DNA of 31,018 bases, taken from a virus. Within the stretch, counting starts at the first letter, position 1; each line of letters starts with the position of its first letter. Shown piece after piece: positions 7,052 through 12,005 of this stretch. The stretch is taken from positions 1 through 31,018 of IMG/VR virus record IMGVR_UViG_3300006030_000068; one strand, given 5' to 3'. Made by a program: the position numbers and the translations under genes. The notes beneath the pieces were generated by a model. The model was not told the origin of the DNA. It did not search any database and was given only the letters and a program-made list of their open reading frames with translations.

Positions 7052-8380
7052 ATGCGGCTTTCTGATGTAATCAATGCACCCTGGGCAATTCAGCCTGAAA
7101 TCCTAAACGAAATTCAAAGCGTTTACGCGGCGCATGCCCGCAACGAGCACATTAATATAGCTGCGGTTGAAGCGCGTCTAGGTAAGCCATTAGCAAACGA
7201 GCCGCAAGGTTATACAGTGCAAGATGGCGTGGCGGTAATACCGATTCACGGCGTTATCGGCAAGCGGATGAATATGTTTTCGCAAATATCCGGCGGCACA
7301 TCTACCCAATTAATAGAGCGCGATATAAAAACCGCTCTTTCTGATCCAAAAGTAAATTCTATTTTGTTGCATATCGATTCACCTGGCGGCACGGTGGACG
7401 GCACGCAAAATCTTGCAAGCGTAATCCGAGACGCAAAGACACAAAAGTCGGTTATGGCATTTGCTGACGGCACGATAGCAAGCGCGGCGTATTGGATCGG
7501 GTCGGCTGCTGATGGCGTTGTGGCGGCATCTGATACAACCCAAATCGGGTCAATCGGTGTTGTCGCAACACACACAGATTACTCGAAAGCTGAGGAATCG
7601 CAAGGGATCAAGACCACTGAAATCACAGCGGGCAAGTACAAGCGCATAGCAAGCAGTAATGCGCCTCTTACAAAAGAAGGGAAAGAGTACATTCAAGATC
7701 AAGTCGATCAGCTTTATACGATTTTTGTGGATGAAGTGGCACAAAATCGCGGGGTTGATGTTGATACGGTAATAGAGGACATGGCCGACGGTCGTGTTTT
7801 TTTGAGCAAGCAAGCAAAAAAGCGCGGGATGATTGACGACATCGCAAGCTTAGAAACTACGATTAACAACATGGCAACAGGAGTTTGGCCGATGAATAAG
7901 CAAGTACAGCAAGACAAGCAGCCGGAACCGGTTGCGATGACTATTGAAACGGTAAAAGCGGAATATCCAGAAATAGCGCAAGCACTGGCCAAAGAAGGTG
8001 CAGAGCAAGAACGCGCAAGAATTCAGGCATGTGAAGCGGCTGCTTTAGCTGGTCATGAAGCAATTGTGAACGCCATGAAATACGACGGCAAATCAAGCGG
8101 TCAAGACGTTGCGATGGCGATTGTTCAAGCCGAGCAAAAGTTACGCGCAAATCATCTTGAATCGGTTCGAGCAAATGCGCCTCAAGTGGTTCCGTTGGCA
8201 GCAGTTCCGGCTATCGAAAAGGATGATTCCGTAATCGATAAAAGCAAGCCGGTTGACCAATGGGCGCAAAAAGCATGGGATGCTGATGAAAATATCCGAG
8301 CCGAATTTGGTAATTTTGAAAGCTATTTGGCTTTTGAGAAAGCGTTTGCTGCTGGAAAAGTAAGAGTGGCACGAGCTTAA
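7052..8380 (+). CDS. Capsid maturation protease, S49 family (lambda gpC-like)
   Basis: This 442-residue protein is a ClpP-fold serine protease fused to a scaffold domain, as in lambda gpC/Nu3. The protease part shows VAVIPIHGVIG, ILLHIDSPGGTVDG (the S49 oxyanion region), the catalytic serine in TIASAAYW (about S144), IGSIGVV, and the catalytic lysine in TAGKYK (K195 or K197). It would cleave the scaffold and capsid proteins inside the prohead. From about residue 281 the sequence turns charged and helical (YPEIAQALAKEGAEQERARI), typical of scaffolds. A TTG at 7043 is in frame, but the AAAGG directly abuts it, so the ATG at 7052 is preferred. An internal start with its own ribosome binding site makes the scaffold alone. 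Confidence 0.93.
   Translation: MRLSDVINAPWAIQPEILNEIQSVYAAHARNEHINIAAVEARLGKPLANEPQGYTVQDGVAVIPIHGVIGKRMNMFSQISGGTSTQLIERDIKTALSDPKVNSILLHIDSPGGTVDGTQNLASVIRDAKTQKSVMAFADGTIASAAYWIGSAADGVVAASDTTQIGSIGVVATHTDYSKAEESQGIKTTEITAGKYKRIASSNAPLTKEGKEYIQDQVDQLYTIFVDEVAQNRGVDVDTVIEDMADGRVFLSKQAKKRGMIDDIASLETTINNMATGVWPMNKQVQQDKQPEPVAMTIETVKAEYPEIAQALAKEGAEQERARIQACEAAALAGHEAIVNAMKYDGKSSGQDVAMAIVQAEQKLRANHLESVRANAPQVVPLAAVPAIEKDDSVIDKSKPVDQWAQKAWDADENIRAEFGNFESYLAFEKAFAAGKVRVARA
7892..8380 (+). CDS. Nested in-frame scaffold protein (Nu3-like)
   Basis: Inside the protease gene, AGGAG (7879-7883) lies eight bases before an in-frame ATG at 7892. Translation from there gives 162 residues with no protease residues. 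The product begins MNKQVQQDKQPEP and is charged and mostly helical, rich in Glu, Ala, Lys and Gln, ending in a block with WAQKAWDADENIRAEF and YLAFEKAFAAGK. In lambda the scaffold Nu3 is made from exactly this kind of internal start in gene C, in excess over the protease. The ribosome binding site seen here is better than that of the full-length gene, which fits a higher scaffold dose. The internal start is inferred; the motif and spacing are directly visible. Confidence 0.72.
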   Translation: MNKQVQQDKQPEPVAMTIETVKAEYPEIAQALAKEGAEQERARIQACEAAALAGHEAIVNAMKYDGKSSGQDVAMAIVQAEQKLRANHLESVRANAPQVVPLAAVPAIEKDDSVIDKSKPVDQWAQKAWDADENIRAEFGNFESYLAFEKAFAAGKVRVARA

Positions 8381-8386
8381 TTTTTT

Positions 8387-8419
8387 AACCCTAACGCCGT
8401 GATGGCGCTGGAGAACTAA
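8387..8419 (+). promoter_or_regulatory. Leader element copy A (GNRA-like hairpin plus ribosome binding site)
   Basis: First of three related leaders. AACCCTAA is followed by stem CGCC (8395-8398), loop GTGAT, stem GGCG (8404-8407), then GGAG (8410-8413) and the ATG at 8420 six bases later. The hairpin sits directly before the ribosome binding site of the decoration protein gene. Confidence 0.7.
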
Positions 8420-9196
8420 ATGACTACACTAGCAGCAAACAAACAACGCCAATTCGAGCTTGGCGATTTAAATCACATTCCGGTCATTGCATCGGACATC
8501 ATCTACGAGGGCGCAGCGGTTGGAGTGGTTCCGGCTTCTGGTCACGCGCAACCGTTAACAGCTACTGATAGATTTGTGGGTTTTGCGGTATCCAAAGCAG
8601 ATAATTCAGCAGGCGCAGCAGCAGCGATCAATGTCGAGGTGGTGTATCGCGGCGAGGTTCAGTTATCTGTAACTGGCGCGGTAATAACCGATCTTGGCCA
8701 GCCAATCTACGCAACCGATGACGACACTTTTCAATTTTCTCCGGTTGGTGGTGTGTTCATTGGTTTTGTAAAACGCTTCGTTTCAAGTGGGGTGGTTATC
8801 GTCGAGTTTGACGCGTACGCATTCCGTGATCCGTGGGCACACAAAACCAAGCGCGAAGAATTGACCGGAACTAAAACATTTGATGCTGAGGATTCAGGCA
8901 AGTTGTTCACAGTTACAGCGGACGGCGATGCCGACGCATTGACGCTTCCTGCAATAGCTACCGGCTTATCCGGTATCACTATTCTGGCAATTGGCGCATT
9001 TGGTACGACGGCGGTAACGATTGATCCTAATGCGTCAGACATGATCATGGGGCCTGATATTACCGGCGCTGATAACAAAGATTTGATCTTGACCAAAGCA
9101 ACTCAACGCCGCGGCGATTTTGTCACGCTGATTGCTGGTGATGCTGATGGATACATGGTCACTGAAATGCGCGGCACATGGGCGCGTGAAGCATAG
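8420..9196 (+). CDS. Capsid decoration protein, DUF2190-like
   Basis: This 258-residue beta-rich protein occupies the position of lambda gpD between protease and major capsid protein. The first 130 residues show the small-barrel pattern of DUF2190 capsid cement proteins: IIYEGAAVGVVPASGHAQPL, DRFVGFAVSKADNS, INVEVVYRGEVQLSV, then GGVFIGFVKRFVSSGVVIVEFD. Residues about 140-258 form a second beta domain (TFDAEDSGKLFTVTADGD, LTLPAIATGLSGITI) like those seen in tail and decoration proteins, so this is longer than a minimal cement protein. It is preceded by leader copy A with GGAG six bases before the ATG, which suggests strong expression. DUF2190 membership is by pattern; the role as cement is from position. 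Confidence 0.8.
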   Translation: MTTLAANKQRQFELGDLNHIPVIASDIIYEGAAVGVVPASGHAQPLTATDRFVGFAVSKADNSAGAAAAINVEVVYRGEVQLSVTGAVITDLGQPIYATDDDTFQFSPVGGVFIGFVKRFVSSGVVIVEFDAYAFRDPWAHKTKREELTGTKTFDAEDSGKLFTVTADGDADALTLPAIATGLSGITILAIGAFGTTAVTIDPNASDMIMGPDITGADNKDLILTKATQRRGDFVTLIAGDADGYMVTEMRGTWAREA

Positions 9197-9207
9197 ATTT
9201 TAGTAGC

Positions 9208-9249
9208 AATTGAGGCGGGGTAACGCTGTGAAGCCGTGATCCCGCAATT
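9208..9249 (+). promoter_or_regulatory. Compound hairpin between decoration and capsid genes
   Basis: AATT (9208-9211), a GAG bulge and GCGGG (9215-9219) pair with CCCGC (9241-9245) and AATT (9246-9249). The loop holds a smaller hairpin, ACGCT/AGCCGT with one bulged C, closed by GTGA. No T tract follows. The inner part (TAACGCTGTGAAGCCGTGAT) resembles the leader that comes just after it and may be a decayed copy. A stabilising or processing structure for the capsid message is likely (inferred). Confidence 0.55.
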
Positions 9250-9252
9250 ACA

Positions 9253-9285
9253 AACCTAACGCCGTGAGGCGCTGGAGAAATAAAG
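9253..9285 (+). promoter_or_regulatory. Leader element copy B (GNRA hairpin plus ribosome binding site)
   Basis: Second leader. AACCTAA, stem CGCC (9260-9263), tetraloop GTGA (9264-9267, a true GNRA loop), stem GGCG (9268-9271), then GGAG (9274-9277) and the ATG at 9286 eight bases later. It lies directly before the major capsid gene. Confidence 0.72.
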
Positions 9286-10239
9286 ATGGCAGATCAAAGC
9301 ATTCTATCTAGTCGCGCAGTGATTGGCATGTATTACGCGCAACTCGAACAAAGCGCCGGGGCAACATGGATCGGCAGCGTATCAAATCTCTTTAATTCAG
9401 ATCAAGCAAGCGAAACGTACCCGTTTCTTGGCCAATCGCCAACAATGCGCGAATGGTTGGGCGGCAGAGGTGAGAAAGCGCTTGCATCAAATAGCGTTAC
9501 GATTATTAACAAGCATTATGAAGCAACGCTTGGCATAGCTACTAAAGATTTACGAAGAGATAAAACCGGCCAGATTCAAGCAAGAATCCAAGAGTTTGTT
9601 GATCAGGATATGCGGCATTGGGGCAGCTTGTTAAGTGATTTTATTCTGGCAGCACCTTCAACAACTTGCTACGACGGTCAATACTTCTTTGATACCGATC
9701 ACTCCGAAGGTAGCTCAGGTTCTCAAAGCAACGACATAACCGTTGATATTTCAGCGCTTCCGGCAGCTTCTCATGGGTCAACGACCGCGCCAAGCGTGGA
9801 AGAAATGCAGCAAGCGATCATGCTTGGTATCGCTCAAATACTGTCCTTCAAAGACAATCAAGGCGAACCAATGAACGACAATGCACGCGAATTTCTTGTC
9901 ATGGTTCCGGTGAGCTTATGGGCAACGGCAACAGCTGCAACAAGCGCAGTATTAACCGCATCGCTGGCGCAAAATTTGAACCCGAACGGCATGAATGGGA
10001 TGAATGTGCGTGTGGAAATGAATCCGCGTCTTACCTGGACAGATTCGTTCGCAATTTTCCGCACTGACTCTCCAATTAAAGCGCTGATTCGCCAAGCAGA
10101 AACGACGCCACAATTGCAAATACTGGATGAAAATTCAGAGCACGCATTTAAAAATCAAGAAATTCTGATTGGCATTGATTCTTGGCGTAACGCTGGTTAT
10201 GGGTACTGGCAACGTGCTTGTTATGTGACTCTGGTGTAA
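9286..10239 (+). CDS. Major capsid protein, Mu gpT-like
   Basis: This 317-residue protein is the main shell subunit. Its N-terminal third has the recognisable gpT pattern: YPFLGQSPTMREWLGGRG, then NSVTIINKHYEATLGIATKDLRRDKTGQI, followed by DQDMRHWGSLLSDFIL. The centre has AREFLVMVPVSLWATA and the C-terminal half SFAIFRTDSPIKALIRQAE. These fit Mu-like major head subunits (HK97 fold), which are about 300 residues. Lambda's gpE is unrelated at this level, so this head combines a Mu-type shell with lambda-type terminase, portal and protease. It is preceded by leader copy B, consistent with very high expression. I see no long N-terminal propeptide, which agrees with a separate scaffold. Confidence 0.92.
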   Translation: MADQSILSSRAVIGMYYAQLEQSAGATWIGSVSNLFNSDQASETYPFLGQSPTMREWLGGRGEKALASNSVTIINKHYEATLGIATKDLRRDKTGQIQARIQEFVDQDMRHWGSLLSDFILAAPSTTCYDGQYFFDTDHSEGSSGSQSNDITVDISALPAASHGSTTAPSVEEMQQAIMLGIAQILSFKDNQGEPMNDNAREFLVMVPVSLWATATAATSAVLTASLAQNLNPNGMNGMNVRVEMNPRLTWTDSFAIFRTDSPIKALIRQAETTPQLQILDENSEHAFKNQEILIGIDSWRNAGYGYWQRACYVTLV

Positions 10240-10241
10240 TC

Positions 10242-10544
10242 ATGGAACGCTACCTAACGACCGACACGGTCGAGTTATTAAGTGGCGTTCTTGATCTGAA
10301 TGAAGATCAAGCAAGACGGCGCAAAGGATGGCTTAAGAAACTTGATTCCGGTTTGTTTGAAATCATTAAGCCGGTACAGTTCAAGGCTGGCGAGGGATTA
10401 GGCTTTGAAGGCGAATTATCCAAGTATCACTTGGAGCGCATGATAAGCGAATCCGGTGAACCTGTTGTGAAATCCGAGGAACCACAAGAGCCGGTTACGT
10501 TCGAGGCCATTGCCACAAAAGCAAAGGGCAAAGCTAAAAAATGA
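10242..10544 (+). CDS. Small protein in the FI-like position
   Basis: This 100-residue, charged, mainly helical protein lies between the major capsid gene and the gpFII-like gene, where lambda has FI. It begins MERYLTTDTVELLSGVLDLN, has a basic patch (QARRRKGWLKKL) and ends in a lysine-rich tail (ATKAKGKAKK). The ATG at 10242 is two bases after the capsid stop, with a weak GGTG upstream; an earlier ATG at 10218 lies inside the capsid gene and is less likely. The basic tail could bind DNA or acidic capsid surfaces. I do not recognise the family, and an FI-like packaging-helper role is positional inference only. Confidence 0.65.
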   Translation: MERYLTTDTVELLSGVLDLNEDQARRRKGWLKKLDSGLFEIIKPVQFKAGEGLGFEGELSKYHLERMISESGEPVVKSEEPQEPVTFEAIATKAKGKAKK

Positions 10545-10816
10545 TGACTGAGGACGCATCGGTTTTTTTTGATACCGACGATTTCGCGGAGACGGTAACT
10601 ATTGACGGGGTTTCTGTCAATGGCGTCTTTGATGCGGAATTTGTAACGGTTGATTATGTTGAAACAAAAAAACCGGTGTTTTCTTATGTTCGCACCGATG
10701 CACCTAGCGCTGCTTATGACTCTACTTTAGTGCGAAGCGGCACAACGTACAAAGTAAAGGGCGTGCAGCCGGATGAAACAAACATGATTAATAAGCTGAT
10801 TCTGGAGAAACAGTAA
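10541..10816 (+). CDS. Head-tail joining protein, gpFII-like
   Basis: This 91-residue protein matches the gpFII layout: an acidic N-terminus, VNGVFDAEFV (compare the VIRGVFDDP region in lambda), a central FSYVRTDAPSA strand, and GTTYKVKGVQPDETNMINKLIL at the end. In lambda this protein forms the connector to which the preformed tail attaches. Length is slightly less than lambda's 117 residues. It starts at an ATGATG that overlaps the previous stop; either ATG could serve. Its own stop overlaps the next start (TAATG). Assignment is by fold pattern and gene order. Confidence 0.78.
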   Translation: MMTEDASVFFDTDDFAETVTIDGVSVNGVFDAEFVTVDYVETKKPVFSYVRTDAPSAAYDSTLVRSGTTYKVKGVQPDETNMINKLILEKQ

Positions 10817-11256
10817 TGGCGAATCATGTTCGGCAACAGTTACGAGAAGCAGTAGCAACTGCTGTGACTGGATTATCCACGACCGGCAGCCGCGTCTATC
10901 AAAGCCGAGTTTATCCGCTGGATACATCAAGCTTGCCTTGTTTGCTGGTCACGAGCGATGGCGACAAATCCGAAGCAATCACCGTGCATTCACCTTACCA
11001 GCAAGAACGCGCCACAACGATCAGGATTGAGGGCTTGGCAAAGGCCGTGAGCAACATTGACGATACGTTGGACACGATCAGCAAAGAAGTTGAAACCGCC
11101 ATTGCTGGATCATCTACCGCAATTGTTAAAGGCATGATTTATCAAGGCGCACAAATTGATTACGACGGCAGCGGAGAGCAGCCCATTGGCAAAGTAACCA
11201 TGATTTTCACAAAGGATTTATACACCTTATCGAACGCACCAGATGTACTGATTTAA
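10816..11256 (+). CDS. Tail terminator, gpU-like
   Basis: This 146-residue protein sits directly before the major tail gene, as lambda U does before V. It has an N-terminal helix (VRQQLREAVATAVTGL), a central SSLPCLLVTSDGD strand matching the FPAVAVYL region of gpU, the strand ERATTIRIEGLAKA, then a helix of DDTLDTISKEVETAI. This alpha-beta order is that of tail terminators, which cap the growing tail tube and fix its length together with the tape measure. GGAG lies upstream and the ATG overlaps the previous stop. Lambda gpZ, a separate gene before U, is not evident here, so one protein may cover both steps. Confidence 0.75.
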   Translation: MANHVRQQLREAVATAVTGLSTTGSRVYQSRVYPLDTSSLPCLLVTSDGDKSEAITVHSPYQQERATTIRIEGLAKAVSNIDDTLDTISKEVETAIAGSSTAIVKGMIYQGAQIDYDGSGEQPIGKVTMIFTKDLYTLSNAPDVLI

Positions 11257-11265
11257 TTGATTAAC

Positions 11266-11300
11266 AACCTTAACGCCGAGATGGCGCAGGAGAAAGCAAG
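11266..11300 (+). promoter_or_regulatory. Leader element copy C (GNRA-like hairpin plus ribosome binding site)
   Basis: Third leader. AACCTTAA, stem CGCC (11274-11277), loop GAGAT, stem GGCG (11283-11286), then AGGAG (11288-11292) and the ATG at 11301 eight bases later. It precedes the major tail protein gene. Confidence 0.7.
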
Positions 11301-11948
11301 ATGGCAAACGCTCAGGTATTACGAAATGCGGTTGTGCAGATTCAGACCGCATTGGGATCAGCAAAAACAATCACGGGAATAACAAAAGCGTCTCCGGCTG
11401 TAGTGACAGCAACGCATGATTATAACGTAGGTGATTACGTTCTTATATACGATGTTGGCGGGATGACACAGGTAAATGATCGAGTTTACCGTGTTTCAGC
11501 CGTTAGCACGACAGTTTCGTTTACGCTCGAAAGTATTGATTCTTCTGGTTACACAACATACACAAGCGGCGGCACTGCCAAGAAAATCACATTTGGCGCG
11601 TCATTCGACAACATCACGCAGTTGGATATACCTGATGCAACACCTGATGAAATCGACGTTACCTCAATCCATGACGACGAGCGACAAATTGAGTTTGGTC
11701 ACGCTGCGGCGCAGAAAGGTTCATTTAGCTGTATTGCTGATCCATTAGCTACTGCAGTTGTTGAGGTTGGTACGGCTGACAGGGCGCAAGAGCGCAGAGC
11801 CTTTTTGGTGACGTTGGCTTCCGGTTACAAAGCGCTATTTAACGCCTATTGCTCAGGCGGAACAGGTTTCAGCGGCGGCGTAGGTGCTGCCGGTACTGGT
11901 CAGATTTCTCTCTCGCTGCGTACTAAAGCGCAGTGGTTCTCAAGCTAG
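11301..11948 (+). CDS. Major tail tube protein, gpV-like
   Basis: This 215-residue protein is expected to form the stacked rings of the tail tube. Features include DYNVGDYVLIYDVGGMTQVNDRVYRV, a small beta domain similar to inserts in tail tube proteins, then the tube core pattern FGASFDNITQLDIPDATPDEIDVTSIHDDERQIEFG. That last motif (a target strand then a D-E-I-D-V-T-S turn) is typical of tail tube subunits. A glycine-rich stretch (GTGFSGGVGAAGTGQ) lies near the C-terminus. It has its own leader and is followed at once by a rho-independent terminator, as expected for a highly expressed tube gene that must exceed the downstream tail proteins. Confidence 0.88.
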   Translation: MANAQVLRNAVVQIQTALGSAKTITGITKASPAVVTATHDYNVGDYVLIYDVGGMTQVNDRVYRVSAVSTTVSFTLESIDSSGYTTYTSGGTAKKITFGASFDNITQLDIPDATPDEIDVTSIHDDERQIEFGHAAAQKGSFSCIADPLATAVVEVGTADRAQERRAFLVTLASGYKALFNAYCSGGTGFSGGVGAAGTGQISLSLRTKAQWFSS

Positions 11949-11962
11949 AAGCGTGGGGATTT

Positions 11963-11989
11963 GCCCCGGCGCTTGTCGGGGCTTTTTTT
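11963..11989 (+). terminator. Rho-independent terminator after the major tail gene
   Basis: GCCCCG (11963-11968) pairs with CGGGGC (11977-11982) across an 8-base loop, followed by seven T residues (11983-11989). It lies 14 bases after the major tail stop and 17 bases before the next ATG. With no visible promoter after it, it probably reduces rather than stops transcription into the tail assembly genes, or is overridden by antitermination. Confidence 0.88.
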
Positions 11990-12005
11990 CAACATGGGGT
12001 GAAAA

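Follow-up and report, generated by a model that had tools for sequence, protein, structure and literature searches.

A short covarying hairpin predicted at the ribosome-binding site of late genes in many unrelated phages

The 31,018-nt stretch of viral DNA analysed here (the window) carries three copies of a short leader that, judged from comparison of its many copies, is a conserved and covarying predicted RNA hairpin, one that adjoins the ribosome-binding site of late genes, on their coding strand, in many uncultured phages that are otherwise unrelated and mostly from betaproteobacteria. We see about an even chance that it acts in translation initiation as a modular leader, with the ribosome or a host component as its reader; both the effect and the partner are what we infer. 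Cis-acting RNA leaders are a known kind of element; what appears to be new is this particular leader family and the range of unrelated late genes that carry it, and no description of the leader was found in the literature (open-licence papers). The features of the window are as follows.

8390..8413, + strand: leader copy 1, CC-UAA-CGCC-GUGAU-GGCG-CU-GGAG, ATG at 8420, before a virion structural/decoration-like gene
8420..9196, + strand: gene of copy 1, virion structural protein, phrog_1731 (PHROGs)
9215..9245, + strand: second, longer hairpin, GCGGGGU-A-ACGCUGUGAAGCCGUG-AUCCCGC, just 5' of copy 2
9255..9277, + strand: leader copy 2, CC-UAA-CGCC-GUGA-GGCG-CU-GGAG, ATG at 9286, before the major capsid gene
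9286..10239, + strand: gene of copy 2, Mu gpT-like major head protein, phrog_371 (PHROGs)
11269..11292, + strand: leader copy 3, CU-UAA-CGCC-GAGAU-GGCG-CA-GGAG, ATG at 11301, before the major tail gene
11301..11948, + strand: gene of copy 3, major tail protein, phrog_584 (PHROGs)

The three copies share the form CY-UAA-CGCC-GNGA(U)-GGCG-CW-GGAG. A sequence check of the window places TAACGCC at 8392, 9257 and 11271, the CGCC/GGCG stem at 8395-8398/8404-8407, 9260-9263/9268-9271 and 11274-11277/11283-11286, and GGAG at 8410, 9274 and 11289, followed after 6-8 bases by the start codons (ATG at 8420, 9286 and 11301), while the loops read GTGAT, GTGA and GAGAT in copies 1, 2 and 3, respectively. 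An earlier note on this DNA had reported three hairpin copies at these positions, before decoration, capsid and major tail genes; the sequence check confirms the copies, and PHROGs agree with the gene identities (virion structural at 8420, major head at 9286, major tail at 11301). The same note saw the element at none of the other start sites that it looked at, and this holds for the whole window: a covariance model built from 78 diverse leader copies detects only these three in the 31 kb, at 48-53 bits, with the next match at 13.5 bits. By itself the hairpin is not rare, since CGCC-N(3-6)-GGCG occurs exactly 3 times in the window against a shuffle mean of 1.8. No sigma-70-like promoter was found around the leader copies on the + strand. 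The possibility that the UAA flank is the stop codon of the upstream gene was rejected for the window, where the upstream stop lies earlier, at 8378-8380. It should also be noted that a strong intrinsic-terminator-like hairpin is present at 11963-11990, 3' of the major tail gene.

Copies of the leader are far from chance: the exact element is found in 69 IMG/VR stretches, and the reversed pattern in none. Pairing of the stem was assessed by a scan in which the three inner stem positions on each side were unconstrained. Among 60 distinct copies that have a stem other than GCC/GGC and precede an ORF of at least 60 aa, 51 pair fully; with shuffled 3' arms for the same 60 copies (2000 shuffles), the mean is 18 fully paired and the maximum 30. 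Scan matches without an ORF pair in 2 of 22 cases, no more than expected. This free-stem test is the unbiased one, and the 100% pairing in one alignment is partly by construction because that alignment was filtered for pairing. All four stem pairs show compensating changes (C-G/U-A at position 1, G-C/A-U at position 2, and C-G/U-A/A-U at positions 3 and 4), and at least two different stems occur within each of nine downstream protein groups. For relatives of the window phage, the stem is CGUC/GACG before the orthologous major tail gene (L029) and CGCU/AGCG before the decoration gene (L044). Hence the description of the stem as unchanged is right inside the window but fails in relatives, where the stem varies with pairing kept. 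Compensatory base changes of this type are a general mark of structured cis-regulatory RNA leaders; together with the many copies and the strong preference for capsid and tail genes, the four-pair covariation strongly supports the proposal of one shared RNA element.

Left unconstrained, the loop reads GNGA, in some copies with an added pyrimidine, and UUGG in two copies; the UAA before the stem is present in about three quarters of the distinct copies among the matches listed, UAAA being the main variant. Four loci (L342, L343, L353 and L363) carry CCC-CGCC-GUGA-GGCG-CUGGAG, in which the UAA flank is absent, before an endolysin-like gene. Position -2 is a C in 94% of copies and position -1 a pyrimidine in 95%, and neither was part of any search pattern. 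The element thus reaches two bases further 5' than first described. Beyond -2, the flank holds less than 0.4 bit per base and is G-poor and T-rich upstream.

The leader is closely coupled to the start of translation. Among the matches listed, the gap between hairpin and GGAG is exactly 2 nt in 110 distinct copies with an ORF versus 17 with other spacings, a count weighted upward by copies fetched with stricter patterns, and the AUG mostly lies 5-9 nt after GGAG. A minority subtype among these matches has a longer linker (CUGA(A)(A)GGAG, UGAGGAG or UAAGGAG) and is mostly found before capsid genes; CUGA(A)(A)GGAG precedes capsid genes at L292, L311, L318, L310, L336 and L309. From the near-fixed spacing we conclude that hairpin and Shine-Dalgarno (SD) sequence form one unit, though the linker subtype indicates that the two can be separated by a few bases. 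Furthermore, the position before start codons is conserved over varied genes, as in cis-regulatory leaders generally. In the predicted extended fold of the window copies, two SD bases pair with the 5' flank (CY with GG); this pairing was not retained, being predicted by folding without covariation support and with W28 varying opposite an invariant A12. Two loci have tandem copies before a minor tail gene (L025, 900-981; L075, 3939-4016), in which no start codon follows the SD of the first copy. A terminator-like hairpin with a U tract lies within 60 nt upstream of 25 of 145 copies, compared with 38 of 600 control starts. At L006, L052, L105, L159 and others, the copy directly follows such a hairpin and U tract, with no room for a promoter between them.

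The genes behind the leader are diverse. Among the matches listed, the downstream proteins form at least 42 groups at E 1e-4 (154 elements) and at least 51 at E 1e-3 (185 elements), a few of them chance. They include four unrelated capsid families, namely Mu gpT-like, SU10 MCP (PF17236), P22 coat (PF11651) and HK97-type Phage_capsid (PF05065), as well as major and minor tail, portal, scaffold, ejection and tail-spike genes. Whole contigs carry one to six copies, on the same strand throughout each contig; a contig reached via a chance match (G433) carries none. The leader is also present before a family of small HTH-like genes (L279, L247, L249 and L087) that lie in integrated elements of betaproteobacteria, so it is not confined to virion genes. 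The earlier note had restricted the element to the three most abundant virion genes, which is plausible in this phage; the limit is too narrow in general, because portal, scaffold, ejection, minor tail, tail-spike and island regulatory genes are preceded by it as well.

No known RNA family accounts for the leader. At the curated gathering score, Rfam 15 gives no match in the window or in 8 carrier loci, and a permissive Rfam scan of 8300-11400 returns chance eukaryotic families only. Mu-gpT-DE (RF03012) is named after Mu gpT-like capsid genes, and the capsid of the window is gpT-like; however, its model has 53 positions, the present leader is not tied to gpT, and 0 of 11 contigs (the window and ten carrier contigs) score above 49 bits. 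The leader also lacks the form of a CsrA/RsmA target, which has GGA in a hairpin loop, as the loop here is GNGA and GGAG lies outside the stem.

In 84,980 species genomes, the strict form has 15 matches, of which 11 look genuine. Nine of the 11 are in records with betaproteobacterial names (Variovorax, Undibacterium, Burkholderiaceae, Nitrosomonas, Thiobacillaceae, Rhodoferax, Polaromonas, Acidovorax and one uncultured beta); of the other two, one lies on a phage contig of 7 kb that had been binned as Peregrinibacteria and one in an unclassified Proteobacteria MAG. Lineage was looked up for three of the genuine genome matches and taken from the record name for the others. Matches in Pseudomonas linyingensis, Chlorobiota, a Clostridia MAG and an unclassified Proteobacteria MAG (L079, L082, L086, L083) were rejected as chance by their flanks and loops. 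Each of eight host genomes that were searched contains between one and three copies, and the copies examined are in prophage-like or island regions. In 399 genomes from the order of L075, a covariance model search with strict prefilters finds at least 3 with a match.

The spread of the leader is patchy. Short blastn against cultured phages gives chance-level matches only, and the leader is absent from Rhodoferax phage P26218, EBPR podovirus 1 and MW202879; since the cultured P26218 and EBPR podovirus 1 are without it, host lineage alone is insufficient. It is likewise absent from homologues of the window capsid with 44-65% identity in other viral contigs, from a capsid homologue with 67% identity in a Nitrosomonadaceae genome, and from those of Pseudomonas phage KT1 and Sinorhizobium phage phi3LM21. 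Closely related capsid genes thus manage without the leader, which is therefore not essential. Among the outcomes named in the earlier note as speaking against the element are absence before the matching genes of relatives and stem changes that break pairing: the first is often the case for capsid homologues 44-67% identical, while stem changes in carriers keep pairing. In a pairwise blastp comparison, from which a small diverged shared protein could escape, no protein is common to all 11 carriers and any one is shared by at most 5. Given that flanks cannot be aligned between unrelated carriers, selection acts on a unit of about 24 nt. This small size and the patchiness favour, as far as sequence comparison goes, repeated gain or very short transfers.

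The anatomy of the leader (about 24 nt: C-Y-U-A-A, a 4-bp hairpin with a GNGA or GNGA-Y loop, C-W, GGAG, and AUG 5-9 nt on) supports a role linked to initiation, and the leader probably sets the translation strength of its late genes. In the mechanism that we propose, the hairpin would sit beside the SD helix, at the side of the 30S subunit where the mRNA exits, and the ribosome would be recruited or positioned either directly, via the GNGA loop and the UAA/CW flank, or via a host RNA-binding protein. Efficient initiation would then be secured for genes of which the phage requires much product, or a set amount, late in infection. No protein is common to the carriers, so a phage protein is a less likely reader than the ribosome or a host component, and the recurrence of the leader among such phages points to a common host reader; the patchy spread would likewise favour one outside the phage genomes. 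A phage-coded S21 or CsrA was considered as the reader, but neither gene is present among 22 carrier contigs. The T7 gene 10 leader, also a phage capsid-gene leader, is used for raising translation; it has no sequence or structural resemblance to the present one, a GNGA hairpin found across unrelated phages. A broader proposal, which we hold tentatively and with somewhat less than even confidence, is that a 24-nt hairpin leader, read by a host factor or the ribosome, serves as a common translation signal for late genes in betaproteobacterial DNA phages that are unrelated and in satellite-like islands, and that it has spread or repeatedly arisen before non-homologous capsid and tail genes.

The leader could instead be a translational operator, where a protein on the hairpin blocks the adjacent SD and delays or caps the translation of late genes, as at the MS2 coat protein operator or a ribosomal-protein leader. 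An invariant loop and flank with a variable stem in a short hairpin are typical of protein-bound operators, the tandem copies at L025 and L075 fit such a site, and a satellite-like island has the leader on a regulatory gene. The predicted fold of the window copies, furthermore, covers two SD bases and would thus lower initiation, not raise it, contrary to the reading that we favour. However, as the carriers share no protein, the repressor would have to be a host protein; a CsrA or S21 gene occurs in 0 of 22 carrier contigs, and the longer-linker variants (CUGAAAGGAG) place the SD outside the hairpin. The operator of RNA phages (MS2 type) is a short hairpin that sits at the ribosome-binding site and depends on key bases of its loop and flank, whereas the present leader lies upstream of the SD, has a GNGA loop and belongs to DNA phages sharing no protein. 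Autoregulatory leaders of ribosomal proteins have a hairpin beside the SD and a host component as reader; here, in contrast, there is no Rfam family match, and one to three copies are found in each of eight host genomes. On balance, we regard an operator as unlikely.

Somewhat less probable again is a signal for processing or stability, by which the hairpin would mark or protect the 5' end of processed late messages, or guide a host endonuclease. The T-rich, G-poor upstream flank agrees with this, and the 25 of 145 copies that follow a terminator-like hairpin (38 of 600 for controls) include some where a message could end or be cut. Nevertheless, most copies have no upstream terminator, protection would not need a near-fixed 2-nt spacing from the SD, and a 5' stabiliser would be expected to have a stem longer than 4 bp.

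We think it quite improbable that the leader is a transcription signal such as an antitermination site. Lambdoid boxB (nut) hairpins have a 4-5 bp stem and a GNRA-like tetra- or pentaloop, and CYUAAC beside a hairpin with such a loop recalls boxA and boxB; a terminator also precedes some copies. Unlike lambdoid boxB, the leader is joined in fixed manner to the SD and start codon and occurs in several copies per genome (up to six per contig), and upstream of it no conserved boxA is seen beyond the CY in the flank. Finally, that a good SD and a chance hairpin were merely spread by recent common descent of their genes is barely credible, common as the bare CGCC-N-GGCG hairpin may be, given the 69 matches versus 0 for the reversed pattern, the covariation, the unrelated downstream genes and the lack of flank similarity; this account is refuted as to sequence, though the leader may yet be without function.

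Most cis-acting leaders belong to a single gene family or a single phage lineage. The present leader is tied to a role, that of late and mostly structural genes, and recurs across phages with no common protein. If its reader is found, a feature of betaproteobacterial translation control that is exploited by phages would be exposed. Such a finding would also make the leader usable, from sequence alone, as a marker of late genes in uncultured phages and perhaps of their host lineage. The leader is, besides, a compact candidate part for expression work in betaproteobacteria.

A Nitrosomonas locus (L280, 7028-14102; G004:C10) holds a satellite-like island with an integrase, a HigB/HigA-like pair and replication-like genes, adjacent to an aroC-like gene. 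Its leader precedes a short HTH-like ORF interrupted by a stop, and its terminase small subunit is 65% identical to that of the window; the island may be dependent on a phage similar to that of the window.

As for the longer hairpin at 9215-9245, it belongs to the lineage of the window and holds the leader's core UAACGNNGUGA. Lacking a U tract, it is not an ordinary terminator. Its outer stem shows compensating changes among the window, L029, L074 and L044 (GCGGGGU/AUCCCGC, GCAGGAU/AUCCUGC and GCGGUGU/AUGCCGC).
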